NCBI RefSeq assembly: GCF_900142735.1
Contig: NZ_FRBY01000005.1
Coordinates: forward strand, 62,001 to 126,000
Origin: Flavobacterium saccharophilum
Lineage (GTDB): Bacteria; Bacteroidota; Bacteroidia; Flavobacteriales; Flavobacteriaceae
Direction: 5' to 3'
DNA length: 64,000 bases
Below, in pieces: positions 17,282-51,543 of the stretch (its first letter is position 1; each line of letters starts with the position of its first letter). The notes under the pieces were generated by a model. The model was given only the letters and a program-made list of their open reading frames with translations. It was not told the origin of the DNA and ran no database searches. The position numbers and the translations under genes are program-made.

Positions 17282-19270
17282 ATGGCTATGCAGACAGGAG
17301 AAAACGAACAGGCACTGAGAAAGATCTTGGATATGACAAGACTCATCAGTATTATTATTTTAACAATCCATTTTTATTATTACTGTTATGCAGCCTTTCG
17401 GGAGTGGCATCTGGTCAGTGGGTTCAGTGATAAAATTTTAGGCAATATTTACCATACAGGATTATTCAGTAATTTTCATAAGTCCAAACTCTATGCACTG
17501 GGATTTTTAATAATCTCACTACTTGGAGCTAAAGGACGAAAAGATGAAAAACTGAATTACAAAACAGCTTTTGCTTATATAATTACGGGGATTCTAATTT
17601 ACTTTATAAGTTATCTTTCACTATACGTGAAAATAGAATTAATGCTCGCTGCAATTGCCTATATGACCATCACTTCCAGTGGCTTTCTTCTGATGCTTTC
17701 CGGAGGTACATTATTATCCAGAATTATAAAAAACAGGCTCAACAGCAAGGATATTTTTAATACCGAAAATGAAACTTTCCCCCAGGAAGAAAGGTTCCTG
17801 GAAAATGAGTATTCTATTAACCTGCCGGCCCGATACCATTTAAAGGATAAGATAAGGGACAGTTGGATAAACATTATTAATCCTTTTCGGGGACTGTTGG
17901 TTTCAGGTACTCCCGGATCCGGGAAATCTTATTTTGTTATACGTCATGTTATTACCCAGCACATACGTAAAAAATTTACCATGTTTGTCTATGATTTCAA
18001 GTTTGATGACCTGACCAAAATTGTCTATAATACCTGGCTTAAATACAAACATCTCTATCCAAAATTACCTCAGTTTTATGTCATTAATTTTGATGATCTG
18101 ACCCGGACCAATCGGTGTAATCCGTTAGAGCCGTCAGGCATGAGTGACATTACGGATGCTTCGGAATCGGCACGTACTATTCTGTTAGGGCTCAATAGGG
18201 AATGGATAAAAAGGCAGGGAGATTTTTTTGTAGAATCTCCGATTAATTTTCTATCGGCCATAATATGGTATTTACGAAAATATAAAGACGGTGAATTCTG
18301 CACGCTTCCCCATGTGATCGAACTCATGCAGGAAGATTACGATAGTCTCTTTACCCTGCTCAGAACCGAAAAAGAAATCGAAGTACTCATTAATCCCTTT
18401 GTGAATGCCTATTTAAATAACGTAATGGACCAGTTGGAGGGGCAAATTGCTTCGGCAAAAATTGCCATGGCCCGTCTTTCTTCTCCACAATTGTATTATG
18501 TTTTATCGGGTAGTGATTTCACATTGGATATCAATAATCCGGACGAACCGAAGATCGTATGTATGGGGAATAATCCGCAGAAAATCCAGATATATGGAGC
18601 TGTGTTATCACTTTATGTAAACCGATTGGTTAAACAAGTGAACCAAAAAAACAAGCAGAAAAGCAGTCTGATATTCGATGAATTTCCAACTATCTACCTC
18701 AACAATATGGACAGTTTGATTGCCACATCCAGGAGCAATAAAGTAGCAACTTGTTTGGGTATTCAGGATTTTAGCCAGCTGCGTAAAGATTATGGACGAG
18801 AACAGGCAGACGTGATTATGAATATTGTTGGAAACGTAGTAAGCGGACAAGTTACAGGTGATACTGCCAAACAATTGTCAGAGCGTTTTGGAAAAATTAT
18901 GCAGGACAGGGAAAGCCTTTCTATTAATAGCGGAGATACTTCTATAAGCCGGTCCAAACAATTGGAATCTGCTGTACCGCCGTCCAAAATTTCCGGACTT
19001 AGTTCCGGTGAGTTTGTTGGTATGGTAGCCGATGATCCTGATTGTAAAATAGAACTAAAAACATTTCATTCTGAAATAGCAAATGACCATGAAGCATTAA
19101 AAAAAGAACAGGATCAATATGTTGATATTCCTATTATTCGCAAAGTTGATAATGCAATGGTACAGCGCAATTATCTACAGATAAAAAAGGACATCAAGGA
19201 TATTATTTATGCTGAGAAAGAAAGATTGTTAAATGATATTGAACTGAGCCATTTAGTAATTAAAAAGTGA
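17282..19270 (+). CDS. VirD4/TraG-type type IV coupling protein
   Basis: Inner-membrane ATPase that delivers the relaxase-DNA complex to a conjugation channel. The 662-residue protein has several N-terminal transmembrane helices (about residues 18-150), Walker A GTPGSGKS at 209-216, a Walker B-like LIFDEFPTIYL with D466/E467, and the TraM-recognition region with IATSRSNKVATCLGIQDFSQ. It is the last gene of the three-gene mob unit. No mating-pair formation genes are present here, so the element is mobilisable rather than self-transmissible, unless those genes were lost at the truncated right end. Confidence 0.92.
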   Translation: MAMQTGENEQALRKILDMTRLISIIILTIHFYYYCYAAFREWHLVSGFSDKILGNIYHTGLFSNFHKSKLYALGFLIISLLGAKGRKDEKLNYKTAFAYIITGILIYFISYLSLYVKIELMLAAIAYMTITSSGFLLMLSGGTLLSRIIKNRLNSKDIFNTENETFPQEERFLENEYSINLPARYHLKDKIRDSWINIINPFRGLLVSGTPGSGKSYFVIRHVITQHIRKKFTMFVYDFKFDDLTKIVYNTWLKYKHLYPKLPQFYVINFDDLTRTNRCNPLEPSGMSDITDASESARTILLGLNREWIKRQGDFFVESPINFLSAIIWYLRKYKDGEFCTLPHVIELMQEDYDSLFTLLRTEKEIEVLINPFVNAYLNNVMDQLEGQIASAKIAMARLSSPQLYYVLSGSDFTLDINNPDEPKIVCMGNNPQKIQIYGAVLSLYVNRLVKQVNQKNKQKSSLIFDEFPTIYLNNMDSLIATSRSNKVATCLGIQDFSQLRKDYGREQADVIMNIVGNVVSGQVTGDTAKQLSERFGKIMQDRESLSINSGDTSISRSKQLESAVPPSKISGLSSGEFVGMVADDPDCKIELKTFHSEIANDHEALKKEQDQYVDIPIIRKVDNAMVQRNYLQIKKDIKDIIYAEKERLLNDIELSHLVIKK

Positions 19271-19729
19271 TGATAATTTTATAAAAAAAACTTACAACTT
19301 ACTATTTTAAAAAAAGTTTTTAAAAAACATCTGGACTTGTCGCCATAAACTCGATAAAAGTAAAAGAAGTGAAGCAGATTAGAAATTCAAACGAAGATAT
19401 GCTTTAACCTGCCTGAATCAGTGGAGGTATCAAAAACAAGTTCTGTATACAAGAGAATATTTCTATATGCTCTTAAAGCGGAAAATTTATCTTCAGGACG
19501 AGTATCTTTAAGGTATGATGCACATCAGCAACAAACATTTTAACATTACACGAATCACATACTGATACGTATTATCAAGATTAAATGTAAAATCCTTTTT
19601 TTAGAGCCACATATTTATCCAGATATTGGAGGATAAATATTATCATTAGTAACACAAATCTTGTGATTTTTATATAATAAAAAAACACTTCATTGTTTTT
19701 GATGCAATAAATTTTCCTTCAATTTTATT
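19271..19729. other. 459-base spacer after the coupling protein gene
   Basis: No convincing gene or RNA was seen. It contains short open stretches such as one encoding SIKVKEVKQIRNSNEDML and then stop, which may be a degraded remnant, and AT-rich sequence. It separates the mob genes from the convergent ATPase/nuclease cargo. Confidence 0.3.
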
Positions 19730-31074: not shown

Positions 31075-32319
31075 TTAAAGAAATAAATTTTCTAACTTAA
31101 ATTCAGTATTCAAATCAGACAACTTTAATTTATCAATTAATTTTCTTTCTTTTATAGCTTTAGTTCCATAAACGTAAGCTTTTGCATTATTAACTGCATC
31201 AACAGCGAGCAACTCATTATCTTTGAAATACCAAACAGAAAATTTAATAATCTCTCCTATTTCTGTTCTTATTACAACATTATTATAGCCCGTTGACAAA
31301 CCAACTATTTGTAATTTAATGTCATACTGGTCAGACCAAAACCAAGGAATGGTATCATACCTATTATTCTGACCAACAATTGATGCGGCGGCAATTTTGG
31401 CTTGATCCACTGCATTTTGTACCGATTCTAATCGAATAAAACGATCATAATGCGGATTATAATGAAACGTACAGTCACCAATTGCATAAATTGAGGGGTC
31501 ACTAGTGCAATTGTATGCATCTACTTTTATTCCATTGTCAATTTCTAAACCAGCATCTTGCGCTAACTCTATATTCACTCGAATTCCAACGCCCACAACA
31601 ATGCAATCAGCGATAAAAGAAGAACCGTCAGAACAAAAAACAAAATTCTCCGAACCCTTAGCTTCAATATGCGTTACATTTTTATTTGTTAAAATAGAAA
31701 CATTATTTTTAGCATGTAATTCTTGAAAAAAATCAGACATTTGTGGAGCAGTAACTCTAGACAAAACTCTTTCTTCTCTTTCTAATATAGTAACCTTAGC
31801 TCCCATCTTATGTAATGAAGCCGCAGTCTCTAAGCCGATGTACCCTCCTCCTAACACTACAACTCGCTTGTTTAAGCAATTATTAACTGCATCACGAATA
31901 GCTGTAACATCTGCAGCAGTGCGCAATGAAAATAAATTTGAAGCATTCTCTAAACCAGAAAGTTCTGGAATAAAAGCGCGTGCTCCAGTTGCTATAACAA
32001 GTTTATCATAACTTTGTTGTGTTGCATCACTAAGAGTTAGTGTTTTATCGATCCGGTTTATTGACAAAACAGAAAGTCCTAATTGTAGTGTAATATTTCC
32101 CTTTTGATAACTTTCTTCCGATTTTAAAAGATTTTTATCAATACCATCTTTACTTGTTAAATATGCTTTTGATAAAGGTGGGCGGTGGTACGGCAAATGG
32201 AAATCTCCATCAATCAATCGAATCTCTCCTAGCCACCCTTGCTGACGCAAAGCAAATGCAAAATTGACCCCAGCATGACTAGCACCAATAATTACACAAA
32301 CATTATTATTTTCTTTCAT
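31075..32319 (-). CDS. FAD-dependent NAD(P)H:ferredoxin reductase (P450 redox partner)
   Basis: Passes electrons from NAD(P)H to the neighbouring [2Fe-2S] ferredoxin. The 414-residue protein has the two-dinucleotide-fold layout of putidaredoxin reductase: FAD-binding VIIGASHAGVNFAFALRQ at the N-terminus, LVIATGARAFIPELSG (about 106-121), NAD-binding VVVLGGGYIGLETAASLHKM (about 152-171), and the second FAD motif SIYAIGDCTFH (about 273-283). It is 33 bases downstream of the ferredoxin gene, with the P450 gene beyond that. The set matches the three-component P450 systems that oxidatively demethylate 6-O-methyl-D-galactose in marine Bacteroidota. Confidence 0.92.
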   Translation of the reverse strand: MKENNNVCVIIGASHAGVNFAFALRQQGWLGEIRLIDGDFHLPYHRPPLSKAYLTSKDGIDKNLLKSEESYQKGNITLQLGLSVLSINRIDKTLTLSDATQQSYDKLVIATGARAFIPELSGLENASNLFSLRTAADVTAIRDAVNNCLNKRVVVLGGGYIGLETAASLHKMGAKVTILEREERVLSRVTAPQMSDFFQELHAKNNVSILTNKNVTHIEAKGSENFVFCSDGSSFIADCIVVGVGIRVNIELAQDAGLEIDNGIKVDAYNCTSDPSIYAIGDCTFHYNPHYDRFIRLESVQNAVDQAKIAAASIVGQNNRYDTIPWFWSDQYDIKLQIVGLSTGYNNVVIRTEIGEIIKFSVWYFKDNELLAVDAVNNAKAYVYGTKAIKERKLIDKLKLSDLNTEFKLENLFL

Positions 32320-32352
32320 CGTTTAAATTGTGGTATTTCATTTAACATCGTT

Positions 32353-32661
32353 TTATCTGACCACTTGAAATACCACTCCATCAATTGCTTCCGATACTTC
32401 AATCTGGCAACACAAACGACTAAACTCATTTGCGTCATCATCTAATTCTAGCATGTCTTTTTCTATTTCGCTTGCTGGACCTGTTTTCAAAAGATCTGCT
32501 TCGTTTAGATAAATATGACAAGTAGCACAAGAACAAACGCCACCGCAATCACCATCAATTCCTTTTACATTTGCCTGTTTTGCCAACTCCATAACAGAAC
32601 CCGAAGTACCTTCTACAACAATACTCTGATTGTCCTTTGTAATAAATGTTATTTTTGCCAT
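32353..32661 (-). CDS. [2Fe-2S] ferredoxin (adrenodoxin/putidaredoxin type)
   Basis: Small electron carrier for the P450. The 102-residue protein has the cluster ligands C39, C45 and C48 (DCGGVCSCATCHIYL, C-x5-C-x2-C) and C84 in RLCC, the spacing of vertebrate-type ferredoxins. The acidic segment EKDMLELDDDANEFSRLCCQ is the usual docking surface. An additional C43 within the motif is unusual. It lies between the P450 gene (42 bases upstream) and the reductase gene on the same strand. Confidence 0.94.
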   Translation of the reverse strand: MAKITFITKDNQSIVVEGTSGSVMELAKQANVKGIDGDCGGVCSCATCHIYLNEADLLKTGPASEIEKDMLELDDDANEFSRLCCQIEVSEAIDGVVFQVVR

Positions 32662-32703
32662 TCTTTTTATAAAGTGTTATTTATTAATTATTTGTTGCTA
32701 GGA

Positions 32704-33861
32704 TTATAGTGCAGTAAATTTTACTCTAATGGAGTCATAACCCACTTTACGTTTAAATTCTCCTAATTCTTCTATATTTTCTTTACAATCTAGTATTGCA
32801 ATCGATTTTACTTTCTGAGACAAAGCCATTAATAGAATTTTCATAATCTGACGTGCATGTGTAGCACCCAAACAATTGTGGTGACTAAATCCGAAACTCA
32901 CATGAGGATTCATTTTTCGATCTAAAACAACTTCATTTGGATTTTCAAAAGTAGTCGCATCACGATTTGCAGAAGCCCAACATAAAGAAATTCTAGAATC
33001 AGCTTTTATTGCATGCTCACAAACTGCGGTGTCTTTAGTTACGACCCTTCCCATTTGTGTCAAGGGTGCAAAATAACGAATCAACTCCTCGACCGCTTTG
33101 TTTATAATTTCAGGCTCATCACGAAGCTTTTCTAATGATTGCTTATGCTCAGCAAAATAGGCAATACTATTAGTTACAGCATTAATTACTGTATCTCGCC
33201 CACCTGCAAAAGTTAAAATCATTACACCTTTTACCTCTTCTGCCGTAAGCTTTTTTCCATTTACCTCAGATGCCAAAAGAACAGAATACAAATCTTCTCC
33301 CGGATTTTGAATTGCTTTTTGAATTTGTTGGTCTATATAATTATACAAAATCAATGCTTTATCCCCATCTAGCGCCACACCATCACTTCTAAAAACGTGT
33401 GTTCCCCAGGAAATCCAGGTTTGTGCTTCTTCAAACGGAATATTTAACAACAAAGTCAATGCATTAGATTGTAAGCATAATGAAAAATCCGCAACAACTT
33501 CTATAGCATCTTTTACAAGTACAGCATCGACAATATCATTTATTTGTTTAGTCAACTTTTGTTCATATTCTGACTCCAAAGGACGCTTAAACCAAGGTTC
33601 TAAAATCGCTCTAAAATCACCGTGTAAAGGCGGATCTAGTTCGAACGGAATTTGACGAATATTGCGAATAGCAACTTCCGATGGTATAACAATGCGACCT
33701 GGTGTTGCGCCTGATTGAAAAGTATCCCAACTGTGTGCTGCTTTTCGAACATCTTTTAATCGTAAAAGCATGGTTACTGGGTCATTTTGATCATCCATTT
33801 CGCCATAGCCTTTTGATATACGGGCATCTTGAAATGGATCTGGTAATGAACTTTTTTTCAT
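32704..33861 (-). CDS. Cytochrome P450, predicted 6-O-methyl-D-galactose demethylase
   Basis: Monooxygenase of 385 residues with the bacterial class I P450 motifs: I-helix FAGGRDTVINAV, the ExxR of ELIRYFAP, and the heme loop FGFSHHNCLG with Cys330 as the thiolate ligand. It is followed by the ferredoxin and reductase genes, and sits beside porphyran-type GH16 enzymes. In Zobellia and Formosa, equivalent P450 systems remove the methyl group of 6-O-methyl-D-galactose as formaldehyde, making porphyran sugars usable (published work on algal P450s). Substrate is inferred from context. I use the ATG at 33861 (MKKSSLPDPFQDARISKGYG); a longer frame to 33972 adds an unlikely hydrophobic leader. Confidence 0.9.
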   Translation of the reverse strand: MKKSSLPDPFQDARISKGYGEMDDQNDPVTMLLRLKDVRKAAHSWDTFQSGATPGRIVIPSEVAIRNIRQIPFELDPPLHGDFRAILEPWFKRPLESEYEQKLTKQINDIVDAVLVKDAIEVVADFSLCLQSNALTLLLNIPFEEAQTWISWGTHVFRSDGVALDGDKALILYNYIDQQIQKAIQNPGEDLYSVLLASEVNGKKLTAEEVKGVMILTFAGGRDTVINAVTNSIAYFAEHKQSLEKLRDEPEIINKAVEELIRYFAPLTQMGRVVTKDTAVCEHAIKADSRISLCWASANRDATTFENPNEVVLDRKMNPHVSFGFSHHNCLGATHARQIMKILLMALSQKVKSIAILDCKENIEELGEFKRKVGYDSIRVKFTAL

Positions 33862-34001
33862 AATATTTGAAGTATAATTTGAATGACTGAGCAAGAAAAA
33901 AATTGACAAAAAAAAACGGTATCCATCTAAGTTGTTTTGGACAAAAGTTTGTAGTTGAAACAACTTTGACAAAGAAAAATATAATTGAAAGAGTACAATT
34001 T

Positions 34002-39664: not shown

Positions 39665-40807
39665 TTATGTAATTAATTCTTTTACTATTGCTGCAGTATG
39701 CTCTCCTAAAGAAGGAGACCCGACTGTAGAGGTAAAGTATTCCCCATCAATTTTTATTGGACAACGAGTTGTTTTATATTCAAAACCATCGCCCATTTTC
39801 ACGTTTTGAATCATCTCTAAAATTTTGAAACCCTCATGAGCAAAAAGTTGTTCCCAATCCATCACTTTGGCACACCAAATATCAGCAGGCTCTAGTAAAC
39901 TTAACCAATGTTCAGTGGTATTGGTAAGTAAATGATTGGCTAGGATTTTCTTGATTTCGTTTCTATTATTAAACCAACTTTCGCGTTCAGGATAATTTGA
40001 CAAAGCCTCACATCCTATCAACTCTCCAATTAAGGGAATTGCTCCCATAGCTAGTGAAATATAGCCCGATTTTGTTTTATAAATACCGTATGGAGCTCCT
40101 AAATACGCATGTGCACTGTTACTCTCAGGACGAATCGTAGGTGCGCCCCCATCATGATAAAAAGTGGTAATAGATTCAAATTGAAAATCAAGTATAGATT
40201 CTAACATGCTAACCGACACCTTACTGCCTGCTCCTGTTTTAGCTTTATGGATTAATGCAGCTAAAATGCCTTGAGCCAAATGCGCTCCTGATAAAATATC
40301 AACAATTGCTAAACCAACTGGAACAGGACCATCACTTATTTTTCCGTTTAACCACGTTAAGCCAGAAAGTGATTGCAATAATAAATCCTGACCAGGTTTT
40401 GTTTTCCAAGGACCTTCTTCGCCATACCCTGAAATATTTGCATAAATAATAGATGGATTTATGTTTTTAACAGTTTCATAATCTAATCCCAAACGTTCCA
40501 TTACTCCAGGTCTAAAATTATGAACAAGTACATCTGCTTTTTCAATTAACTTTAGTACTTGTTTTTTATCCTCTTCCACTTTTAAATCAGCTTGAAAACT
40601 TTCTTTATTTCTATTAATAGCTCTAAAAACAGAGGATTCTCCATTTAAAATCACATTAGAAACATATAGTTGACGACAAATATCCCCAGTCTCTGGACGC
40701 TCTACTTTAATCACTCTAGCACCTAAATCGGCTAACCTTAAACTAGCTGATGGTGCCGACAAAAACTGGCTCAAATCAACTATTAATATATCTTGTAATG
40801 GTTTCAT
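39665..40807 (-). CDS. Class III CoA-transferase (CaiB/BaiF family), copy B
   Basis: Transfers CoA between acyl-CoA donors and a carboxylic acid. The 380-residue protein has the family start ([20 protein letters not shown], then [12 protein letters not shown]), the NRNKES loop, [16 protein letters not shown], and the catalytic aspartate D141 in KPGQDLLLQ. The late part carries [19 protein letters not shown] and a wide insertion before the C-terminus. It is a paralogue of the next gene, the same length, in tandem with 20 bases between. Two such subunits may form a heteromer or act on different acids. The substrate is unknown; the tandem pair and the adjacent solute-binding-fold gene suggest one dedicated pathway. 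Confidence 0.9.
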
Positions 40808-40827: not shown

Positions 40828-41970
40828 TTACAAATTGAATTCTTTCTTTAAGTCTTCGGTATGCTGCCCAACTCTAGGAGCTGGTCTTTCAGAAAAAATT
40901 CGTTTATCATTCAAACGAATCGGACAACGTAAAGTATGTACTTTTTCACCTGAAAGTAATTTCAGTTTTTGATCCATTTTCAAAATTTTATAACCTTCAT
41001 CCTCTAGTAATTCACTATAATTATATATGGCGGAGGCCCAAATACCGGCGGGTTCTAAAATATCAAGCCATTGTTGCGTAGTTTTATTTATAAGAAAGGT
41101 TTCAAGCACCTCCATGATGTCGTTCCTTTTAGTAAACCAAGCATCTGAATTGGTATAGATACTAATTTCAGCACAGCCTATTACCTCACCTAGTTTTAAT
41201 AGAGACCCCATTGCAAGAGAAATAAAACCTTTCTTCGTTTTATACACACCGTAAGGCGCTCCAAGATAAGGCTGAGCGGAACCTTTTTCTGCTCTCGCAA
41301 TTTTTTTATTACCATCATTAAGAAAAGTAGTCAGGGACTCAAACTGTAAATCTAAAGTTGACTCTAATAAACTTACTTCTACCCAAGATCCTTGATTTGT
41401 TTTTATCCTTTTGAATAGTGCAGCCAATATTCCTTGTGATAAATGAGAACCTGTTATAATATCCGAAACTGCTGCCCCTACAGGCACAGGATCATCATTT
41501 TTATTACCGGATAAGTTTACAAATCCCGACATCGATTGGATTAATAAATCTTGTCCGGGTTTTTTGACCCAGGGTCCCTTAGTACCATATCCAGTAACAG
41601 TGGCATATATCATTTGTGGATTAATCATTTTTACTTTTTCATAATCCAAACCAATTTTCTCCATTACTCCTGGACGAAAATTATGAGTCATCACATCAGC
41701 TTGTTGAATCAATTTTTTAATGCATTCTAGATCCTCAGGACTTTTTAAATCGGCGGCATACGATTCCTTATTTCTATTTACAGTATGAAAAACCAAACTA
41801 CTGTTATCTAAGAATAAATTTTTTAGCGCAATTTGTCTTCCTGCTTCACCATGAACAGGACGTTCTATTTTTATGACTCTCGCTCCTAAATCAGCTAACC
41901 GCAAACCTGCTGATGGTCCTGCCATAAACTGAGCAAACTCAAGTACTATAATTCCTTCTAGTGGTTTCAT
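40828..41970 (-). CDS. Class III CoA-transferase (CaiB/BaiF family), copy A
   Basis: A 380-residue paralogue of the neighbouring CoA-transferase, upstream of it in the same operon. Motifs are [37 protein letters not shown], the NRNKES loop, [16 protein letters not shown] and the catalytic D141 in KPGQDLLIQ. Motif positions match the other copy residue for residue, so the pair arose by duplication, but side chains around the active site differ (MAGPS against LSAPS). It follows the solute-binding-fold gene by 87 bases. Cytoplasmic. Specificity cannot be read from sequence; members act on formate, oxalate, carnitine, dicarboxylates and others. Confidence 0.9.
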   Translation of the reverse strand: MKPLEGIIVLEFAQFMAGPSAGLRLADLGARVIKIERPVHGEAGRQIALKNLFLDNSSLVFHTVNRNKESYAADLKSPEDLECIKKLIQQADVMTHNFRPGVMEKIGLDYEKVKMINPQMIYATVTGYGTKGPWVKKPGQDLLIQSMSGFVNLSGNKNDDPVPVGAAVSDIITGSHLSQGILAALFKRIKTNQGSWVEVSLLESTLDLQFESLTTFLNDGNKKIARAEKGSAQPYLGAPYGVYKTKKGFISLAMGSLLKLGEVIGCAEISIYTNSDAWFTKRNDIMEVLETFLINKTTQQWLDILEPAGIWASAIYNYSELLEDEGYKILKMDQKLKLLSGEKVHTLRCPIRLNDKRIFSERPAPRVGQHTEDLKKEFNL

Positions 41971-42057: not shown

Positions 42058-43212
42058 TTATTCTATTTCTAATGATTTTAAATATAGTTCATTTAGCTGG
42101 TTTAATAAAGCAACTTCATCACCGCCATTCATCAAATAATTTCTAATGGGAGCTCCTGCTCTATCTTGAAAATACATGTGCCCATTATACCTAGGGCGTA
42201 AAAAGGCTCTGTCTAAGCCAGGTAAAGTATTTTTGAAATAATCACATGTAACAGTATTGGTGTATTCATCTGTCCAAGCTTTTCTGTGACCAGGTTGACC
42301 TCCACCATCAAAAAATACTGTTTTTTGACATTCTTCTGAACCTACGTATTCTACGTATTTTATAGCCGTTTCAATTTCTTTAGATTGAGCAGATACTGCC
42401 AATCCTGTACCTCCCAAAGTAGAGATTGCTCCTACTCCATTAATTTCAATCATATCATGAAAATGCAATAATTTACGAGCATATCCATTTCGACTATAAT
42501 TTGAATATCCATAAGCCCAAGGACAATACGCATATTCATCAGTAAGTGTCATTGCTTCATAAACTTTAATAGGATTCCAATCATACATTTTAGGATCCAT
42601 TTCTACAGCCAAAGCTCTTAACATTTGTAAAGCCTGAACGCCAATTTTTTCACTCACGACATGTTCTTGAGACGCACATACTTCCTCTCCTAAATTACAG
42701 CACATCATATAAAAATTCATCAAAGTATCTTGTGGAATTCCTGGCATGATTACTAAACCTTTGTTTGCTAACGTCAATAACTCCTCATAATTCGTTGGAA
42801 TTTTTAAGCCTTTGGATTCTAAAATGTCAGGGCGACTAGAAGCAACTGGAGTAGCTGCATCAATTGCTAATGCATATTGGTGTCCGTTAGAACTATAGCT
42901 AATATGTGAATGTCCTACAGTATGCTCAGCTAAATCGTTTAAGAATTCTTTTGAAAGGTATTGATCTAGAGGCAAAATCACTTTTGTTTTTCCTGCAAAA
43001 CCTGCCCATGGATGATCGATAACTAACAAATCAAAACGTTTTGCTAATTCATCAATTGGCTCATCTGCAAAGGCTTGTAATGACCTTTTTTGCCATGTGA
43101 TTTCAACATTTGGATTTAACTCACAAAAGCGTTGTGCAGTTGCTACCATAGAAGTAAACCCTCTACTGTGATTCCAAGTAATTCCTTTTAATTGTATTTT
43201 CTCTGAACTCAT
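42058..43212 (-). CDS. Solute-binding-protein-fold protein (family 1 type) lacking a signal peptide
   Basis: A 384-residue protein of the extracellular solute-binding protein family 1 fold: LKGITWNHSRGFTSMVATAQ at the N-terminus, VEITWQKRSLQAFADEPIDE, FDLLVIDHPWAGFAG, and the later STLGGTGLAVSAQSKEIETAIKYVEYV and FFDGGGQPGHRKAW. It starts directly at the first strand, without a signal peptide or lipobox, so as annotated it is cytoplasmic. No ABC permease or ATPase gene is nearby. It is the first gene of an operon with the two CoA-transferases, divergent from iclR. It may bind the pathway's acid or CoA-ester as a sensor, chaperone or enzyme-like subunit; that is inference. An upstream in-frame start encoding a signal was not seen. 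Confidence 0.82.
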   Translation of the reverse strand: MSSEKIQLKGITWNHSRGFTSMVATAQRFCELNPNVEITWQKRSLQAFADEPIDELAKRFDLLVIDHPWAGFAGKTKVILPLDQYLSKEFLNDLAEHTVGHSHISYSSNGHQYALAIDAATPVASSRPDILESKGLKIPTNYEELLTLANKGLVIMPGIPQDTLMNFYMMCCNLGEEVCASQEHVVSEKIGVQALQMLRALAVEMDPKMYDWNPIKVYEAMTLTDEYAYCPWAYGYSNYSRNGYARKLLHFHDMIEINGVGAISTLGGTGLAVSAQSKEIETAIKYVEYVGSEECQKTVFFDGGGQPGHRKAWTDEYTNTVTCDYFKNTLPGLDRAFLRPRYNGHMYFQDRAGAPIRNYLMNGGDEVALLNQLNELYLKSLEIE

Positions 43213-43452: not shown

Positions 43453-44223
43453 ATGACTGTCGAACAATTAGTAAAATATAATGCCCCCGCACTTGATAAA
43501 GGTTTAGATATTCTCGAATTTTTATCTGCCGAAGGTACACCACAATCTCAGGCTGAAATTGCTCAAGGAATCAAGAAAACACCTAGTGAGATCTATAGAA
43601 TGCTGGTTTGTTTAGAAGAAAGAGGCTATCTAATTAGAGGTACAAACGCCGGAAAATATAGACTTTCCTTAAAGATGTATAGTTTATCACACCGTCATAC
43701 TCCATTTGATGAGCTAAAACGGGTAGCACATTATCCGATGCAAAATTTATCCGAAAAAATTAAACAATCTTGTCACTTGAGTATTATTAATAATGATCAG
43801 CTCTTAATCATTGCCCAAATGAGAAGTCCAAATGCAGTTTCTCTTTCTATAGAAGAAGGAACTCACTTCCCATTGGCTCTGACCACATCGGGTAGAGTTT
43901 TTCTATCCTTGTTTACAGACGAACAACGCAACGATTTTTTAAATCGTGATATACATTATAGTAAATGGAGTACTAAAGAACAGAAAGAGTTTGTTGCATC
44001 TATCTTGCAAGTTCAAAAAGACGGCTATAGATACGCACAAAGCAAAATTACGAGCGGTATAACTGATTTTGCCGTTCCGGTAGGTTTACATGATTCTGAT
44101 TTACAAGCAGTGTTAGCAGTTTCTGTGTTTACGTCTAGTATTGATAATGAAATTTCTAACGAACAAATCATAAATGCTCTCAAAGAAGCACAAGCTGAAA
44201 TCAATAAATTGATTGGTGGGTAG
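43453..44223 (+). CDS. IclR-family transcriptional regulator
   Basis: Regulator of 256 residues. The N-terminal winged helix (about 10-70) reads ALDKGLDILEFLSAEGTPQS, QAEIAQGIKKTPSEIYRMLV and CLEERGYLIRG; the C-terminal effector domain (about 80-250) has CHLSIINNDQLLIIAQ, HFPLALTTSGRVFLSLF and GITDFAVPVGLHDSDLQAVLAVS. IclR proteins usually sense small carboxylic acids. It is divergent from the solute-binding-fold/CoA-transferase operon with an inverted repeat in the shared spacer, and a like element precedes the hydratase-dehydrogenase genes. It therefore probably governs the whole block from 39.7 to 51.5 kb. Confidence 0.93.
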   Translation: MTVEQLVKYNAPALDKGLDILEFLSAEGTPQSQAEIAQGIKKTPSEIYRMLVCLEERGYLIRGTNAGKYRLSLKMYSLSHRHTPFDELKRVAHYPMQNLSEKIKQSCHLSIINNDQLLIIAQMRSPNAVSLSIEEGTHFPLALTTSGRVFLSLFTDEQRNDFLNRDIHYSKWSTKEQKEFVASILQVQKDGYRYAQSKITSGITDFAVPVGLHDSDLQAVLAVSVFTSSIDNEISNEQIINALKEAQAEINKLIGG

Positions 44224-44662: not shown

Positions 44663-47600
44663 ATGAAAATCAAATCAGTACAACTACTTCAAATTTTACT
44701 CGTCCTTTTTGTAGTTATCTCTTGCGGAGAGACAAAAAATCTTACAAAAACCCTTGAAGTTGCTCCTTCAAATCCTATAACAGTAGATTATAAAACAACA
44801 GGAAACTTGACAAAAAAAATCATTTTAAATATTACGAATCCTGGAGATTATGCTGGTTTGAGTGTTTTTGCTGATAATGTTCTTTTACTTGATGATTTTG
44901 ATATTCCTATTAAAGGCGCGCAGCAAGTTACGGGTATCGTTACATTTTCTAAAGAAGGGGATACAAAAATCAGATTTGAATCGTTAGATCAAAAACTGAC
45001 TATAAATAGTTATCAATTTGAAGGTTGTTCTGAACTGCAATTACCCATTTTTAAAGACATCTCAGTACAAGCCGGTTTAGAAAAAGCAAATTCTATTAAA
45101 TACGGTGGTCCTTCGGTTGCTGACATTGATAATGATGGTGATTACGATTTTATAGTAAACAATCACAATGCAGAGCCAAGTAAGCTCTATTGGAATAATG
45201 GTGATGGAACTGTGACTAAAGACGAGGAAAAACTTGCCCGATGGTTTAAACAAGATTTACATGGAACTGCTTTAGGTGACTATGATAACGATGGCGATCT
45301 TGATTTAGTGTTAACCCAAGGAGGTGGTAATGGTAAAGCACCTTCAACAGACATTTTTTACCTTAATAACAACAAAGACTTTATGATATATACTGGCGAT
45401 GTTGGTATTGATAAAGGGGGACGCGGACGAGGTGCCAGATGGATTGACATGGACTTAGACGGTGATCTTGATTTGCTATTGTTTAATGAGTCAACACTTA
45501 CATTTACCAAACCACAACATTTTTTTTACGAAAATAAAGGCGATGGGACGTTTGCCTACAAATCGGTAAATGGAATCCAGGACATAGAAGAATCTCGTGT
45601 TCTTGTTACTGATTTTAATAATGATAAAATAGATGATATTATATTTTATAGCCCGATGTCATTCTGGAAAGGAAATGGTGATTTTACTTTTACAGAAGTT
45701 AATACTATAATTCCTAAAGAGATTAGTTCGCTATCACACATTATGGCAATAACAGATATTGATATTGATAATGATGGTGATCTAGATTTGTATTTAGCGC
45801 AAGGAAATTTGTTTGAGCATGGAAAAGGAGAGACTCCTTCGCTCGATTTTAATCCACTTACCAAAGAATTAGCCTTAAAAACTAGAGCATATAAAGATGT
45901 AGATGCCTTTGATTTTACTGCAGATGGTACTATAACAATAGATAAATATTATTACTTAGCACAAGGCGCTTTTTTAAACAAAGATTATCCTATTTTCTTA
46001 GGAAAAAATAAAATTTCCAAAAAATTAAATTCTGGTGAAAAATTAGACATTAGTCCCGAAATGGCAATAGGTTGGCCAGATGACAGATCTGCAGATGGTT
46101 TCTATTTAGGGCATCTAGGAAATTCAAAATGGAAAGCCGCATTGGTTCGTAATGGTGATATTTTTTGGCAATACCGTTTTAGTCTTTTAGGTGTGAGTAG
46201 TGTAACTCCTAAATTTGTTCCACAAAACAGAAATCGTCCCGATATTCTTCTTAGAAATGATGGAACAAAATTTACTGATGTCTCTAAAGAATGGAATATA
46301 CCTCAAGGCGGAAATGCACTGGGAGTTACTACAGGCGATTTTAATAATGACGGATATCAAGATCTTTTTATTTATCGATGGGGACGCGTTGGCGCAAGAG
46401 TGTCTGATAATATGCTATTGAACTCAGGAAAGAATTCATTTGAAGCTACAACCATGCACGGTGCAAATGATGTTGGTGGCCCTGGAAACGGAGACATGGG
46501 GCAAGCATTTGACTTTGATTTAGATGGGAAGATTGATTTATTAAATGGTAGCGAAGGTGGTGAATGGTATTTGTATAAAAATAATACGCCACAGCAAGGT
46601 AATTACGCTTTAGTTAGAGTGGGCTATTCTCCTAAATCGCACATTGACCCCATTTCTGCTGAGGTAATTGTAACCACAGCTACCAAACAATACCGCAAAA
46701 GAGTTGGCTCTGCTGGAGAGGTATTCTCACAAAGTTTACTGAATATTATTCACTTTGGACTCGGAAAAGAAACCGAAATAAAAAGCATTCAAATCAGATG
46801 GAGAAATGGCGAAACTGCCGAATTTAAAAATAAAGCAGCTAACAATAAGTACGATACTGATAAATTAGATCCTGAATCTATAACTATCAGCCCCTTAAAA
46901 ATTCGCAAAGGAACAAGCGCAAAACTGTCACTAGAAGTAACCCCTAAAAATGCCGTGAATGCCGTTACTTGGTCATCTGATAATGACAAAATAGCAACTG
47001 TTGATGCAAACGGAATTGTGACTGCACTAGGAACACCTAATCAAACTGCGGTTATTACAGCGACTAGTAAATCAAATGGAATAACAAGTCAGACTACTAT
47101 TGCAATTACAGAATGGACACCACTACCTGTGACTTCTATTAAAATTGAAGCAAAGGAATCAACTTTTTACACAGGACAAAAAACTGCTTTGACTGCAATT
47201 GTATCACCCGAAAATGCTGACAATGCTAGAGTAAATTGGACTACTGAAAACTCTAAAATTGCAACCGTAGATAGTAACGGAATCGTAAACGCAATTGCTA
47301 CAGGACAAACTACAATACAAGCATCTACAGCTGATGGGGCGGTGGTTTCAAAAATTCCTTTTGAAGTAGTACCATTTATTAATCCATTTATTAAAATCAC
47401 CAACAAGGAACAATTAAAAAGCCAAACCTTAAAGGTTGGAGATGATTTTAAAGTAACCGTAAATTATAATGCCGGCTCAGGAAATCGGGTTATAGCAGCA
47501 GACGAAGGCGGAATTCGTTTTTGGTTGCGTCATTTTCAGAGTCAATGGATTCCTGTAAAAGATGTAGTCCTTATTGATACTGATGCCTTAAAAACAGAAT

Positions 47601-47755
47601 CTGGTAGTGCTACTAAAACATTTTCATTGAAAGGCTTAATTCCAACAAAAGACTTACCAGAAAATCATTTTTATCAATTAAGAGTTGGTTTTACTTCTAG
47701 CGATGGAAAATCCTATAATGATGAAATTTTGCCTTTGGAAATTGTGGCTGAATAA
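44663..47755 (+). CDS. FG-GAP/VCBS and UnbV-ASPIC surface lipoprotein with Big2 domains
   Basis: A 1030-residue exported lipoprotein (signal with VVISC, Cys about 21). After an N-terminal beta region come calcium-binding FG-GAP repeats with D-x-D-x-D-G motifs (DIDNDGDYDF, DYDNDGDLDL, DMDLDGDLDL, DIDNDGDLDL, DFNNDGYQDL, DFDLDGKIDL; about residues 155-650), an UnbV/ASPIC domain (about 655-730, ending IQIRWRNGETAEF), two bacterial Ig-like group 2 domains (about 745-905) and a C-terminal domain of about 115 residues. Such proteins are outer-surface binding or scaffold factors. It lies alone between iclR and the hydratase operon with its own terminator. Ligand unknown; it may capture the substrate of this block. 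Confidence 0.88.
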   Translation: MKIKSVQLLQILLVLFVVISCGETKNLTKTLEVAPSNPITVDYKTTGNLTKKIILNITNPGDYAGLSVFADNVLLLDDFDIPIKGAQQVTGIVTFSKEGDTKIRFESLDQKLTINSYQFEGCSELQLPIFKDISVQAGLEKANSIKYGGPSVADIDNDGDYDFIVNNHNAEPSKLYWNNGDGTVTKDEEKLARWFKQDLHGTALGDYDNDGDLDLVLTQGGGNGKAPSTDIFYLNNNKDFMIYTGDVGIDKGGRGRGARWIDMDLDGDLDLLLFNESTLTFTKPQHFFYENKGDGTFAYKSVNGIQDIEESRVLVTDFNNDKIDDIIFYSPMSFWKGNGDFTFTEVNTIIPKEISSLSHIMAITDIDIDNDGDLDLYLAQGNLFEHGKGETPSLDFNPLTKELALKTRAYKDVDAFDFTADGTITIDKYYYLAQGAFLNKDYPIFLGKNKISKKLNSGEKLDISPEMAIGWPDDRSADGFYLGHLGNSKWKAALVRNGDIFWQYRFSLLGVSSVTPKFVPQNRNRPDILLRNDGTKFTDVSKEWNIPQGGNALGVTTGDFNNDGYQDLFIYRWGRVGARVSDNMLLNSGKNSFEATTMHGANDVGGPGNGDMGQAFDFDLDGKIDLLNGSEGGEWYLYKNNTPQQGNYALVRVGYSPKSHIDPISAEVIVTTATKQYRKRVGSAGEVFSQSLLNIIHFGLGKETEIKSIQIRWRNGETAEFKNKAANNKYDTDKLDPESITISPLKIRKGTSAKLSLEVTPKNAVNAVTWSSDNDKIATVDANGIVTALGTPNQTAVITATSKSNGITSQTTIAITEWTPLPVTSIKIEAKESTFYTGQKTALTAIVSPENADNARVNWTTENSKIATVDSNGIVNAIATGQTTIQASTADGAVVSKIPFEVVPFINPFIKITNKEQLKSQTLKVGDDFKVTVNYNAGSGNRVIAADEGGIRFWLRHFQSQWIPVKDVVLIDTDALKTESGSATKTFSLKGLIPTKDLPENHFYQLRVGFTSSDGKSYNDEILPLEIVAE

Positions 47756-48182: not shown

Positions 48183-48953
48183 ATGGAATCTATTGCGTAT
48201 TCACAAAATGGTGCTCACGTTACCATTACATTAAACAAACCACCAGCAAACAGTTATGAATTAAGTTTTTTGACAGCTCTTGGTAACATTATTGAAACAA
48301 TCAATCAAGACCCAACTTGTAAAATTGTATTAATTAACAGTGACTCTGAAAAGTTTTTTTGCGCTGGAGCAGATATCAAAGTCTTTGGAAATAATACGGT
48401 CGAACAAAACAAAGAAATGGTTGTTGCAGCTCGTAGAGTCTGTCATTTAATAAATACTAGCTCTAAAATATTTATAGCCGCTTTTAGAGGACACATCTTA
48501 GGTGGCGGATTAGAATTGGCCATGGCCTGTGATATACGTCTCGCTGCTGAAGGTCAATACCTAATTGGTCTTCCTGAAATTAAATTAGGACTAATCCCTG
48601 GAAACGGAGGAACGGTACGCTTAATTAATCTTATTGGTGCCAGTCGTGCTATGGAATTATTAGTTACAGGAAATACAATTACGGCAACTACTGCACATCA
48701 ATACGGACTAATAAACCATTTATACCCTACTGCTACTTTTGAAGAAGAAGTCAACAAATATTGCAGCACATTGGCATTAGGTGCCGGTGAAGCTATGGCA
48801 AGTATCAAAAAATTTGTATTACAAAGTCAAGGAATGAGCACTGCTGAAGCTTTAAATCTAGAAACTGCATTAGTTAATCCTTTGTACGAAACACCAGATG
48901 GAATAGAAGGTTTTCAAGCCTTTATAGAAAAAAGAACCCCTAATTTTAAATAA
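48183..48953 (+). CDS. Enoyl-CoA hydratase/isomerase (crotonase) family protein
   Basis: Crotonase-fold enzyme of 256 residues. The oxyanion-hole segment CAGADIKVFG (about 60-69) and GGGLELAMACDIRLAA (107-122) are intact. Both catalytic glutamates of true enoyl-CoA hydratases are present: E111 in GGGLEL and E132 in LPEIKLGLIPG. It should therefore add or remove water on a CoA ester rather than act only as an isomerase. It is the first gene of an operon with an aldehyde dehydrogenase (9 bases later) and a RhaT-like transporter. Together with the CoA-transferases 6 kb away it points to a CoA-ester route for a carboxylate. The actual ester is unknown. Confidence 0.92.
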   Translation: MESIAYSQNGAHVTITLNKPPANSYELSFLTALGNIIETINQDPTCKIVLINSDSEKFFCAGADIKVFGNNTVEQNKEMVVAARRVCHLINTSSKIFIAAFRGHILGGGLELAMACDIRLAAEGQYLIGLPEIKLGLIPGNGGTVRLINLIGASRAMELLVTGNTITATTAHQYGLINHLYPTATFEEEVNKYCSTLALGAGEAMASIKKFVLQSQGMSTAEALNLETALVNPLYETPDGIEGFQAFIEKRTPNFK

Positions 48954-48962
48954 ATCATAAGT

Positions 48963-50420
48963 ATGAGTCAAAACATAAAACATTACAAATGTTACATTAA
49001 CGGAGAATGGCTTGAGTCTTCTTCTCGTGACAATATCGAAGTACAAAACCCAGCAAACTTAGAAGTTTTCGCCACAGTTACTTCTTGTTCTAAACAAGAT
49101 GTACAATATGCATTAGAAAGTTCAGAAAAGGCACAATTGGCTTGGCAACTGACACCAGCACACCAAAGAGCATTGTATTTAATTGCTATTGCAGCTAAAT
49201 TAAAGCAAGAGCGCGATCATTTTGCTAATTTATTGGTTTTAGAGCAAGGAAAAACATTTGCAGAAGCTCAAGGAGAAGTTGATGGCACCATTCAATATTT
49301 AACTTATAATGCAGAAGCAGCTCGCCGTATTCAAGGTGCCATATTTCCTTCCGAAGGAAAAAATGAACATCTGGCCATTTATAAGATTCCTTATGGTGTA
49401 ACTGTGGGATTGTGTGCATTTAATTTTCCGTTAGCATTAATTGGTCGTAAAGTTGGACCGGCTTTGGTTACAGGAAACACTATGATTATTAAACCACATG
49501 AATTGACTCCGATTACCACATCTGAATTTTGTCGATTGGTACACGAAGTAGGTGTTCCTAAAGGAGTAATTAATATGGTGGTCACACAAAAGGCTGACGC
49601 TGCTTCGTTATTGGTTGAAAGCCCGATAACCAAATTAATAAGTTTAACAGGAAGTACTCGTGCAGGAAAAGGAATTTATAAAGCAGCGTCACAAAATGTC
49701 ACTGCCTTAACGTTAGAATTAGGCGGAAAAGCACCTTTCATTGTTTGTGATGATGCAGATATAGAAAAAGCAGTTGAAGCAGCAGCTATTTCACGTTATG
49801 CCAATTCTGGACAAGTGTGTATCTGTAATGAAATGGTAATGGTAGATGAAAAAATAGCAGATGAGTTTACCGATAAATTAATCAAAAGAGTCCAAAAAAT
49901 AAAAGTAGGAGATCCTTTTGATAGCACTGTTAATATGGGGCCTGGAGTTAGTTCGTTGGGTCTAGAACGTATTGACGGTTTAGTAAAGAAAAACATCCAA
50001 CAAGGAGCAGAATTAGCTCTTGGAGGAAAACGTCCTGATGGAGCTTATTTTGAAAAAGGAAACTGGTATGAACCAACCATTTTAACAAACGTAAAAAACG
50101 ATCATGCAACCATGCAGGAAGAAGTTTTTGGTCCTGTACTACCAATTATGAAAATTTCAGGTTTTGATGAAGCTCTAGAATTAACCAATGCCCGTGAAGA
50201 AGGTCTTTCTGCGTATTTATATACCAACAACTATAAGACTCACATGAAAGCAATTGACCAGATGCAAGTAGGGACTATTTTTATCAATCGTAGCATTGTT
50301 GGTTATATACAAGGATACCATTCTGGTCACAAAACGTCAGGAATTGGTGGTGAAGACGGTATCTATGGAATTGAAGGTTTTTTACAAAAAAGAACTATTT
50401 ATATGGATTATAACGATTAA
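48963..50420 (+). CDS. AldA-like NAD(P)-dependent aldehyde dehydrogenase
   Basis: Oxidises an aldehyde to the acid. The 485-residue protein aligns along its length, by eye, with E. coli lactaldehyde/glycolaldehyde dehydrogenase AldA, including the characteristic [10 protein letters not shown] with catalytic C286, E252 in LELGGK, N154 in FNFP, and the C-terminal [21 protein letters not shown]. Nine bases separate it from the hydratase gene. It may oxidise lactaldehyde-like or semialdehyde products in the CoA-linked pathway. An alternative is 3,6-anhydro-L-galactose dehydrogenase, which the surrounding locus would need, since those enzymes are also in this superfamily. Confidence 0.9.
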
Positions 50421-50511: not shown

Positions 50512-51543
50512 ATGGGAATTGGAATCTTGTGGGTCTTAATGGCCGCAATTATGCTAGGCTTTTACGCCTTACCTAGTAAGTATATAAAAAATTATGCCAT
50601 CGAAAATACTTGGGGCATATTTTGGGTTTTGGCCATGTTTGTAGTACCCGTTATTGCTGCTTTTGCATTAGTTAATGGACTATTGGATACATACAGTCAG
50701 GTATCTTCTTCCTTATTTATAACAATACTGTTCTTGAGTATTTTATGGGGAATCGGAAATTTATTATGGGGAATTAGCATCTCTAAAATAGGAATGGCAT
50801 TGGACTTTTCACTTTTAATTGGCGTAGGAACTTTATCAGGTTCGATTTTACCTTTCTTTATGGGAAGTGCTGATCAATTAAATACACCTCGCGGAATGGT
50901 GATTTTAGGTGGGATTTTTATAATTATGATAGGAATTATTGCCAATGGAAAAGCAGGTTTATTGCGTGAGAAATTTGAAAATAGCGACAAAGACCAATCA
51001 AATACAGATTCTAATAAAATGAGAAATGGTATTATAATTTGTGTTATTGGCAGTATTTGCGCAGCAGGTTTTAATCTTTCGTACCACGTAGCTGATAATT
51101 TAGGTCATATTGGTCAAATTTCTCAGGATCAATTTGGTAATGCACCTTGGGTAGCTCGCATTGCAGTGATGCTACCATCATTTATAGGAAGTGGGATTGC
51201 TACCGTACTTTATTTCAGTTCTCAATTAACCAAAAATAAAAGTTGGAGAAATTTTAAAACTCCAGAAAGTTCAAAAAATTTTGGGCTTCTACTAATTATG
51301 GCATTAGTGTACTGTACATCATTAATAATATATGGATTGGGTGCTTATGAATTAGGTCCACTAGGAACCTCAGTAGGTTTTGCTATTTTTCAAACGGGTT
51401 GTATAATGGTGGCGAATCTTTTAGGCTTTTTTACTAGTGAATGGAACAATGCAGGTTCCTTAAGTAAAAACTGGTTGTTCTCTGGATTGTTTATCATGTC
51501 CATCGGAATTATCGTAGTCGCTTACGGAAATGCTATTTCTTAA
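50512..51543 (+). CDS. RhaT-like sugar/proton symporter (GRP/DMT superfamily)
   Basis: Inner-membrane transporter of 343 residues with ten predicted helices in the pattern of E. coli L-rhamnose-proton symporter RhaT: an early GFYALPSKYIKNYAIENTWG, then LSILWGIGNLLWGISISKIGMALDFSLLIG (helix pair; WGIGN is typical), the mid-loop, CVIGSICAAGFNLSYHVADN and APWVARIAVMLPSFIGSGIA. No rhamnose isomerase, kinase or aldolase genes accompany it, so the substrate is probably another small polyol, deoxysugar or sugar acid processed by the hydratase and dehydrogenase encoded just upstream. It is 91 bases from the dehydrogenase gene with a hairpin in between. Confidence 0.88.
   Translation: MGIGILWVLMAAIMLGFYALPSKYIKNYAIENTWGIFWVLAMFVVPVIAAFALVNGLLDTYSQVSSSLFITILFLSILWGIGNLLWGISISKIGMALDFSLLIGVGTLSGSILPFFMGSADQLNTPRGMVILGGIFIIMIGIIANGKAGLLREKFENSDKDQSNTDSNKMRNGIIICVIGSICAAGFNLSYHVADNLGHIGQISQDQFGNAPWVARIAVMLPSFIGSGIATVLYFSSQLTKNKSWRNFKTPESSKNFGLLLIMALVYCTSLIIYGLGAYELGPLGTSVGFAIFQTGCIMVANLLGFFTSEWNNAGSLSKNWLFSGLFIMSIGIIVVAYGNAIS

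Follow-up and report, generated by a model that had tools for sequence, protein, structure and literature searches.

A leaderless CUT1-type solute-binding protein family paired with class III CoA-transferases in sugar-catabolic loci

The SBP1 gene, its neighbours, and its fold

The window analysed here is a 64,000-nucleotide stretch of the Flavobacterium saccharophilum genome. Its minus strand encodes, at positions 42058 to 43212, a leaderless solute-binding protein (SBP) of 384 residues with an ATG start. This protein, termed SBP1, is assigned to the CUT1/MBP fold from its open reading frame, Pfam, an AlphaFold2 model, and structure matches. Two genes for class III (CaiB/BaiF) CoA-transferases follow on the same strand: transferase A (40828 to 41970), after a gap of 87 bp; and transferase B (39665 to 40807), after a further 20 bp. 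Both are 380 residues long, and the CoA_transf_3 domain (3.7e-94 for A, 3.3e-97 for B) spans the full length of each. This same-strand run with its two gaps agrees with the original prediction, made from the sequence alone, that SBP1 is the first gene of a CoA-transferase operon.

A gene for an IclR-type regulator (43453 to 44223, plus strand) lies upstream of SBP1 and diverges from it. Three further plus-strand genes have counterparts at other SBP1 loci: an ECH-family (enoyl-CoA hydratase/isomerase) gene (48183 to 48953), of a type that in many other loci directly follows the CoA-transferases; an aldehyde dehydrogenase gene (48963 to 50420), of a type paired elsewhere with the ECH gene; and the gene for a RhaT-family sugar/proton symporter (50512 to 51543), a recurrent neighbour of SBP1 (35 of 80 loci). 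Between the IclR and ECH genes, positions 44663 to 47755 encode a 1030-residue protein with FG-GAP, ASPIC/UnbV, and Big_2 domains; its cluster comprises five open reading frames from four sources, the window included.

SBP1 matches the Pfam families SBP_bac_1 (3e-9) and SBP_bac_8 (8.6e-8), and no NCBIfam model at E values up to 0.01. The AlphaFold2 model, built from a 38-sequence alignment, has a pLDDT of 94.9 and a pTM of 0.91, and places the first strand at residues 6 to 13. The model resembles CUT1 sugar SBPs: 5iai (Arad_9887; Z 38.8, 2.9 Å, 371 residues); 1eu8 (the trehalose/maltose-binding protein TMBP; Z 38.5, 2.6 Å, 372 residues); and SmoF (7ofy; Z 38.2, 2.6 Å, 365 residues). Across these structures, and including the SmoF entry 7yzs, the two-lobed fold is shared with Z 38.2 to 38.8 over 362 to 372 residues. 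With its SBP_bac_1 match and MBP-like model, SBP1 is predicted to be a full-length, two-lobed SBP of the CUT1 sugar-binding fold. It nevertheless differs from the CUT1 sugar SBPs in several respects: structural-alignment identity is 15 to 18%; leader and transporter genes are absent; the family has its own signature; and CoA-transferases are almost always alongside.

Conservation was assessed in two alignments, A1 (34 sequences, 29 to 83% identical to the window protein) and A2 (38 sequences), from which five diverged members were excluded. Invariant columns number 43 in A1 and 39 in A2. Residues invariant in both include T12, W13, H15, R17, W40, D66, H67, P68, D118, Y236, Y239, Q306, W313, R339, and R341. 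Three invariant segments correspond, by HMM alignment, to loops of 1eu8 (MDVAW, YID, and RP) that we take to be its ligand-contact loops: D66-H67-P68 (43009 to 43017, minus strand), in which D66 aligns with the Asp of MDVAW; D118-A119-A120 (42853 to 42861, minus strand), aligned with YID; and R339-P340-R341 (42190 to 42198, minus strand), in which R339-P340 aligns with the RP motif of both 1eu8 and 5iai. Structure prediction and ligand-pocket comparison, the check proposed at the outset, thus return a CUT1 sugar-SBP fold whose conserved residues align with sugar-SBP cleft loops.

A family without leaders or transporter genes

Members of the SBP1 family occur in Bacteroidota, Pseudomonadota, and Streptomyces plasmids, in line with the earlier statement that similar proteins accompany CaiB/BaiF genes in other phyla. 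Seven of 60 near relatives (own genome included) encode SBP1. Of 395 genomes from Bacteroidota, the phylum of the window, 19 do so (E up to 1e-20); among 398 from Pseudomonadota, to which Hirschia belongs, 18 do. Plasmid records matching at E 1e-5 number 152, with 151 covering over 80% of the query; we read the lowest-scoring among them (24% identity, Rhizobium) as ordinary SBPs. One match lies on pSymB of Sinorhizobium meliloti 1021, at 732459 to 733583. Streptomyces contributes three plasmid records at E 1e-10, one of which was inspected.

Two sets of loci were used. The first consists of the best 80 of 223 relatives from a genome-contig scan, and therefore leans to close relatives, mostly Bacteroidota. 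The second adds 44 loci from the genome search and 18 from plasmids, giving 142 motif-bearing loci (repeats included) with 133 distinct proteins; it omits seven SBP1 matches that lack the exact motif (L007, L008, L142, L146, and L149 to L151). L007 and L008, both from genome G031, are one SBP1 homologue split over two frames on a short contig, which may be an assembly error.

The signature lies near the amino terminus. It reads G10-I-T-W-N-H-S-R-G18 in the window (43159 to 43185, minus strand), with T12, W13, H15, R17, and G18 invariant in both alignments. Most members read G-I/M-T-W-x-H-x-R-G, and a second type reads L-T-W-D-H-P-R-G. Among the diverged members, L142 and L146 have Asp for the motif His (H15), and L149 to L151 read LAWDHRRCWG; either change could reflect a change of ligand. 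The original prediction had described the motif as GITW-H-RG. Its association with CoA-transferase genes in other phyla is real, but the true motif is broader: Ile or Met is accepted, the LTWDHPRG type exists, and five members diverge.

Could a leader have been overlooked? The stop-to-stop frame of the window protein encodes 389 residues, with only five codons ahead of the ATG, so a missed upstream leader is impossible for this copy. Elsewhere in the family, a simple hydropathy measure was applied to every possible start within 75 codons upstream, with a window mean of at least 1.6 scored as signal-like; 30 ordinary SBPs, gathered by homology to a CUT1 SBP, served as controls both here and for permease genes. 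A possible hydrophobic start was found at 1 of the 142 SBP1 loci versus 28 of the 30 controls. The single exception, L003, depends on a doubtful TTG start that L004 and L006, its relatives, lack; the scores ranking below it are 1.53 (L132) and 1.48 (L129). From the chosen start, SBP1 scores range from −0.04 to 1.25; the corresponding range is 1.63 to 2.52 for 13 SBPs of ABC or TRAP type encoded at SBP1 loci. In the 142 loci, the start codon lies 4 to 14 residues ahead of TWxHxRG, 14 being the preset limit. Moreover, each of the 19 SBP1-bearing genomes of Bacteroidota contains exactly one match up to E 0.01, so no leadered twin of SBP1 is seen there. By hydropathy, then, SBP1 lacks the export signal or lipobox of a CUT1 importer SBP. 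The frame length and the family-wide control led us to reject a missed upstream start or lipobox. The original prediction, that SBP1 has no signal peptide and begins at its first strand, therefore holds, and among the homologues examined none shows a clear signal peptide.

Transporter genes are likewise missing. Neither the window nor 77 kb of its flank yielded a match to CUT1 and Rbs permease and ATPase queries (phmmer, E up to 1), consistent with the earlier statement that no permease or ATPase is near. A CUT1 permease lies within 1.5 kb at 0 of 142 SBP1 loci versus 29 of 30 controls. In flanks of up to 8 kb, the 80 loci contain no CUT1 permease, and two (L015 and L019) contain an ABC ATPase. 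Within 1.5 kb, an Rbs-type permease was found at 2 of 142 loci (L148, and L094, where it is annotated with its own SBP), and an Rbs-type ATPase frame starts about 1.4 kb from SBP1 at four (L134, L135, L138, and L140). A complete CUT1 transporter does occur near SBP1 in five plasmid loci: L090; L091, from a record labelled Roseateles (label only); L100; L101; and L102. Each of these transporters has its own leadered SBP, which the SBP1 profile fails to match even at E 10, and a role for SBP1 as part of the nearby transporter was rejected on these grounds. Thus, nearby CUT1 importer genes accompany their own SBP, and SBP1 lacks an adjacent cognate permease and ATPase. Where the SBP1 members seen in public plasmid records carry an annotation, it is "extracellular solute-binding protein" or "(carbohydrate) ABC transporter substrate-binding protein"; the leader and partner evidence contradicts both labels.

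Pairing with class III CoA-transferases

The original prediction also coupled SBP1 to class III CoA-transferases, and this pairing proves near-universal. A CoA-transferase gene immediately follows SBP1 in 77 of 80 loci, and a CaiB-type enzyme lies within the 8-kb flanks of 79. In 111 of the 142 loci the closest transferase on the same strand lies downstream of SBP1 and in 27 upstream, so both gene orders occur; four loci lack one. The gap to the nearest transferase match is at most 30 bp for 90 of the 133 distinct proteins. The four loci are L002 and L037 (whose SBP1 proteins are identical to each other), L126, and L097. Nevertheless, the L002 and L126 genomes carry both transferases on the SBP1 contig, about 11 and about 60 kb away (genome G025, about 11 kb; G345, about 60 kb). 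L037, the one locus of the 80 without a transferase in its flank, has an SBP1 identical to that of G025; L097 has a transferase annotated on the opposite strand, about 4 kb from SBP1. The proposed phylogenetic profile was run on the 395 genomes of the window's phylum (transferase matches at E up to 1e-30): SBP1 and the transferase pair occupy the identical 19 genomes, each with two transferases scoring 402 to 851 bits, and the best score elsewhere is 207 bits.

Both transferases look active, as judged from an Asp at the catalytic position in all 91 transferases of the alignment (D170 in each window copy), which we take to be the equivalent of Frc D169. This argues that SBP1 is not simply compensating for a dead subunit. 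The neighbours match none of the named NCBIfam equivalogs (succinate-glutarate, CoA:oxalate, Frc, mesaconate, and carnitine) above cut-off; the highest score is 237 bits, where 750 is required. In 9 of 80 loci, all Hymenobacteraceae (L058, L060, L061, L064, L065, L069, L075, L078, and L084), a single open reading frame of about 790 to 835 codons encodes both CoA-transferases as a fusion. Fusion of SBP1 to a transferase was also considered; the long open frames concerned (up to 757 codons) look like upstream read-through, and no natural fusion was seen.

Other neighbours recur as well. Flanks of the 80 loci encode a MocA-type oxidoreductase (55), a second SBP (53), GH2 (42), an IclR-type regulator (41), MaoC (39 by clustering, 45 by phmmer), ECH (27), an aldehyde dehydrogenase (23), and FucP (23). 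Two operon forms emerge: SBP1-CaiB-CaiB-ECH-aldehyde dehydrogenase, as in Zobellia, Tamlana agarivorans, Agaribacterium, and Hirschia; and SBP1-CaiB-CaiB-SBP2-MocA-(ADH-SDR)-MaoC, which in Sphingobacteriaceae and Hymenobacter often includes FucP and a GH106-type alpha-L-rhamnosidase (one member tested). ECH or MaoC is present in 68 of 80 loci, and neither lies within the flanks examined of the other 12; SBP2 and ECH share a locus in 4 of 80.

SBP2 likewise lacks a leader and lies in the SBP1 operon (for example, L009:11551-12789, which matches SBP_bac_1 at 7.6e-28). In 49 of 53 copies, the motif IAVR lies 5 to 9 residues from the start, so that the protein begins at its first strand; in the remaining four, all from Hymenobacter, an ATG lies 7 to 8 residues before IAVR within a longer frame. 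Distant relatives of SBP2 include the exported CUT1 SBPs of the five plasmid loci (about 1e-31 to 1e-34). SBP2 was not detected in the window's own genome by a search that lacked a positive control.

A quick tree of 91 transferases, from which fused transferases and fragments below 330 residues were omitted, contains a well-supported type I clade of 61 rows, paired with SBP1. Fifteen type I rows bear the label unlinked; every one derives from an SBP1-bearing genome or record in which the flank was too short or the pair is apart. A type II clade comprises ten transferases, one of which (L100) has no adjacent SBP1; a third set comprises three rows, with SBP1 about 6.5 kb away. The label "transferase next to SBP1" requires 14 changes on this tree, and hence does not define a single clade. 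SBP1 of the L-T-W-D-H-P-R-G type accompanies type II transferases. However, the match between types is not strict: in L096, the transferase is of type II although SBP1 bears the first-type motif. In L100 (Martelella, 17427 to 19458), ECH directly follows a type II transferase with no SBP1 between them; the same plasmid also bears a first-type SBP1-transferase pair.

Patristic distances for SBP1 and its nearest transferase, with the same omissions, correlate with r 0.846 over 119 loci (the highest of 500 permutations is 0.239), and with r 0.778 over the 110 loci of the G-I/M-TW subset. Correlations of SBP1 with other neighbours range widely: GH2, 0.377 (33 loci); ECH, 0.544 (26); RhaT, 0.576 (34); aldehyde dehydrogenase, 0.708 (22); FucP, 0.858 (16); SBP2, 0.901 (45); IclR, 0.907 (41); and MocA, 0.920 (46). 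Since IclR, SBP2, and MocA correlate as strongly as the transferase, SBP1 travels with the operon core and not with the transferase alone. The mirror tree was accordingly rejected as proof of a specific SBP1-transferase pair.

Possible roles and substrate

The CUT1 fold itself is well known; for a family of this fold that lacks leaders and is linked to class III CoA-transferases, we found no report in the open-access literature searched. Other class III CoA-transferases function without an SBP. Benzylsuccinate CoA-transferase (9fn0), a two-subunit class III enzyme, likewise derives from two tandem CaiB-type genes; SBP1 loci differ in their sugar context and in SBP1 itself. We know of no SBP partner for benzylsuccinate CoA-transferase. 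The orphan Bug/TctC SBPs of Bordetella and relatives lack a permease of their own and lie near CaiB/CoA-transferase genes. Bug proteins are periplasmic according to an excerpt of PMC11452294. At E up to 0.001, the Pfam matches of SBP1 are confined to SBP_bac_1 and SBP_bac_8 and do not include the Bug/TctC family.

The original prediction imagined SBP1 as a ligand carrier, sensor, or enzyme subunit. Tentatively, we favour the reading, quite possibly right, that SBP1 serves sugar catabolism in the cytosol as a binding partner of the class III CoA-transferase. In this scheme, one or both CoA-transferases would convert a sugar-derived acid into its CoA thioester. SBP1, with its two lobes and strongly conserved, cation-rich residues, would bind the polyhydroxy acid or its acyl-CoA, present the acid to the transferase, shield the thioester from lactone collapse before ECH or MaoC acts, and hand the ligand over to that neighbouring hydratase-fold enzyme. 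Computation shows the fold, the family-wide lack of leaders and of ABC partners, the pairing, and the sugar-catabolic setting; we infer the physical complex, the ligand class, the protection, the hand-over, and the order of reactions. Counting against the scheme are the tree correlations that single out no one partner, the class III enzymes that need no SBP, the exceptions at L096, L097, and L100, the 12 loci with neither ECH nor MaoC in the flanks examined, and the lack of any natural SBP1-transferase fusion among the loci seen. A more far-reaching version, which we hold to be somewhat more doubtful, is that a sugar-binding fold has moved to the cytosol to become an obligate subunit of the class III CoA-transferase, serving a route through polyhydroxyacyl-CoA thioesters (transferase, SBP1, and a crotonase- or MaoC-type hydratase), with SBP2 also recruited in many Bacteroidota. 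If the partnership is real, it points to a sugar pathway, yet to be worked out, in algal degraders, soil Bacteroidota, and rhizobia, and to a transport fold that has been turned into a cytosolic part of metabolism.

The best rival, likewise doubtful but to be taken seriously, makes SBP1 itself an enzyme on an SBP scaffold, acting on the sugar acid or CoA ester by, for example, elimination, isomerisation, or lactone opening; H15, R17, D66, H67, D118, R339, and R341 would be candidate active-site residues, with the same reserve. The 43 and 39 invariant columns of A1 and A2, with His, Asp, and Arg among them at the cleft loops, speak for catalysis, although a fixed ligand pocket alone could explain them. 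Invariant columns also number 48 among 12 distant SBP1 sequences (41% mean identity) versus 13 among 12 ordinary SBPs (33%), but the sets are unmatched in divergence and so suggest catalysis at most; we rejected conservation as proof of it. No known catalytic motif is present, the signature is not kept by five diverged members (two have Asp for H15), and SBP2, leaderless in the same operon, would demand a second such invention. One SBP-derived enzyme is the PheC cyclohexadienyl dehydratase. PheC belongs to a different SBP class, SBP_bac_3, and enzymes of its type are exported, unlike the leaderless SBP1. In Pfam, SBP1 matches SBP_bac_1 and SBP_bac_8 only, and not the class of PheC. PheC nonetheless offers a precedent for an SBP scaffold put to use outside transport, as described in an excerpt of PMC10520331, which has Clifton 2018 among its references.

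A cytosolic ligand sensor, feeding the divergent IclR-type regulator or tuning CoA-transferase activity, is improbable. IclR-type genes are found in 41 of 80 loci and their tree correlates with that of SBP1 at 0.907, yet it is the CoA-transferase (79 of 80), not the regulator, that accompanies SBP1 most constantly. Moreover, the IclR-type protein has a carboxyl-terminal domain of its own (PF01614), and this domain binds ligand. Strongly disfavoured, and far less probable still, is an ordinary transporter SBP exported by a hidden or non-classical route. SBP1 does share its fold and Pfam family with exported CUT1 SBPs, and CUT1 or Rbs-type ABC genes do occur in some plasmid loci, with ABC ATPase frames starting within 1.5 kb at 4 of 142. 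Against it stand the counts for hydrophobic starts (1 of 142 versus 28 of 30) and CUT1 permeases (0 of 142 versus 29 of 30), the separate leadered SBPs of nearby CUT1 transporters, and the lack of any permease or ATPase match in the window and its 77 kb of flank.

As for the substrate, SBP1 has sugar-catabolic surroundings. The window is a porphyran/agar locus, with beta-porphyranase domains, GH16, a P450-ferredoxin-reductase set, a sulfatase, a PfkB-family sugar kinase, and a KDPG/KHG-type aldolase. In five plasmid loci of alphaproteobacterial type, the annotated neighbours are an amidohydrolase, L-rhamnose mutarotase, MocA, and MaoC, with L-fuconate dehydratase in two of the five; the L090 amidohydrolase resembles L-fucono-lactonase, at 103 bits, below the cut-off of 400. 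No sugar genes of that kind were seen adjoining the pair in Sinorhizobium L089 and L092, and L096 and L097 have TRAP transporters in their place. From this context, a plausible guess is that an L-galacto-configured sugar acid is the common substrate, derived from L-galactose here and from L-fucose in the alphaproteobacterial loci. 3,6-Anhydro-L-galactose is in our reading the less likely substrate for a CoA route, because an enolase-superfamily gene (L161:2452-3543) and another aldehyde dehydrogenase gene, presumably the usual route for this sugar, lie just right of the window.

The P450, 2Fe-2S ferredoxin, and ferredoxin reductase genes occupy positions 31075 to 33972. An excerpt of PMC10033563 describes demethylation of 6-O-methyl-D-galactose, from porphyran, by a P450 system; by analogy, the window set would fit such a demethylase. 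Members of the same three clusters also lie near the SBP1 operons of L014, L017, L022, and L023. The enolase-superfamily gene right of the window is 35% identical over 327 columns to the copy at the SBP1 locus of L090, and a gene on the same side, taken by eye for GH117, matches GH43 in Pfam.
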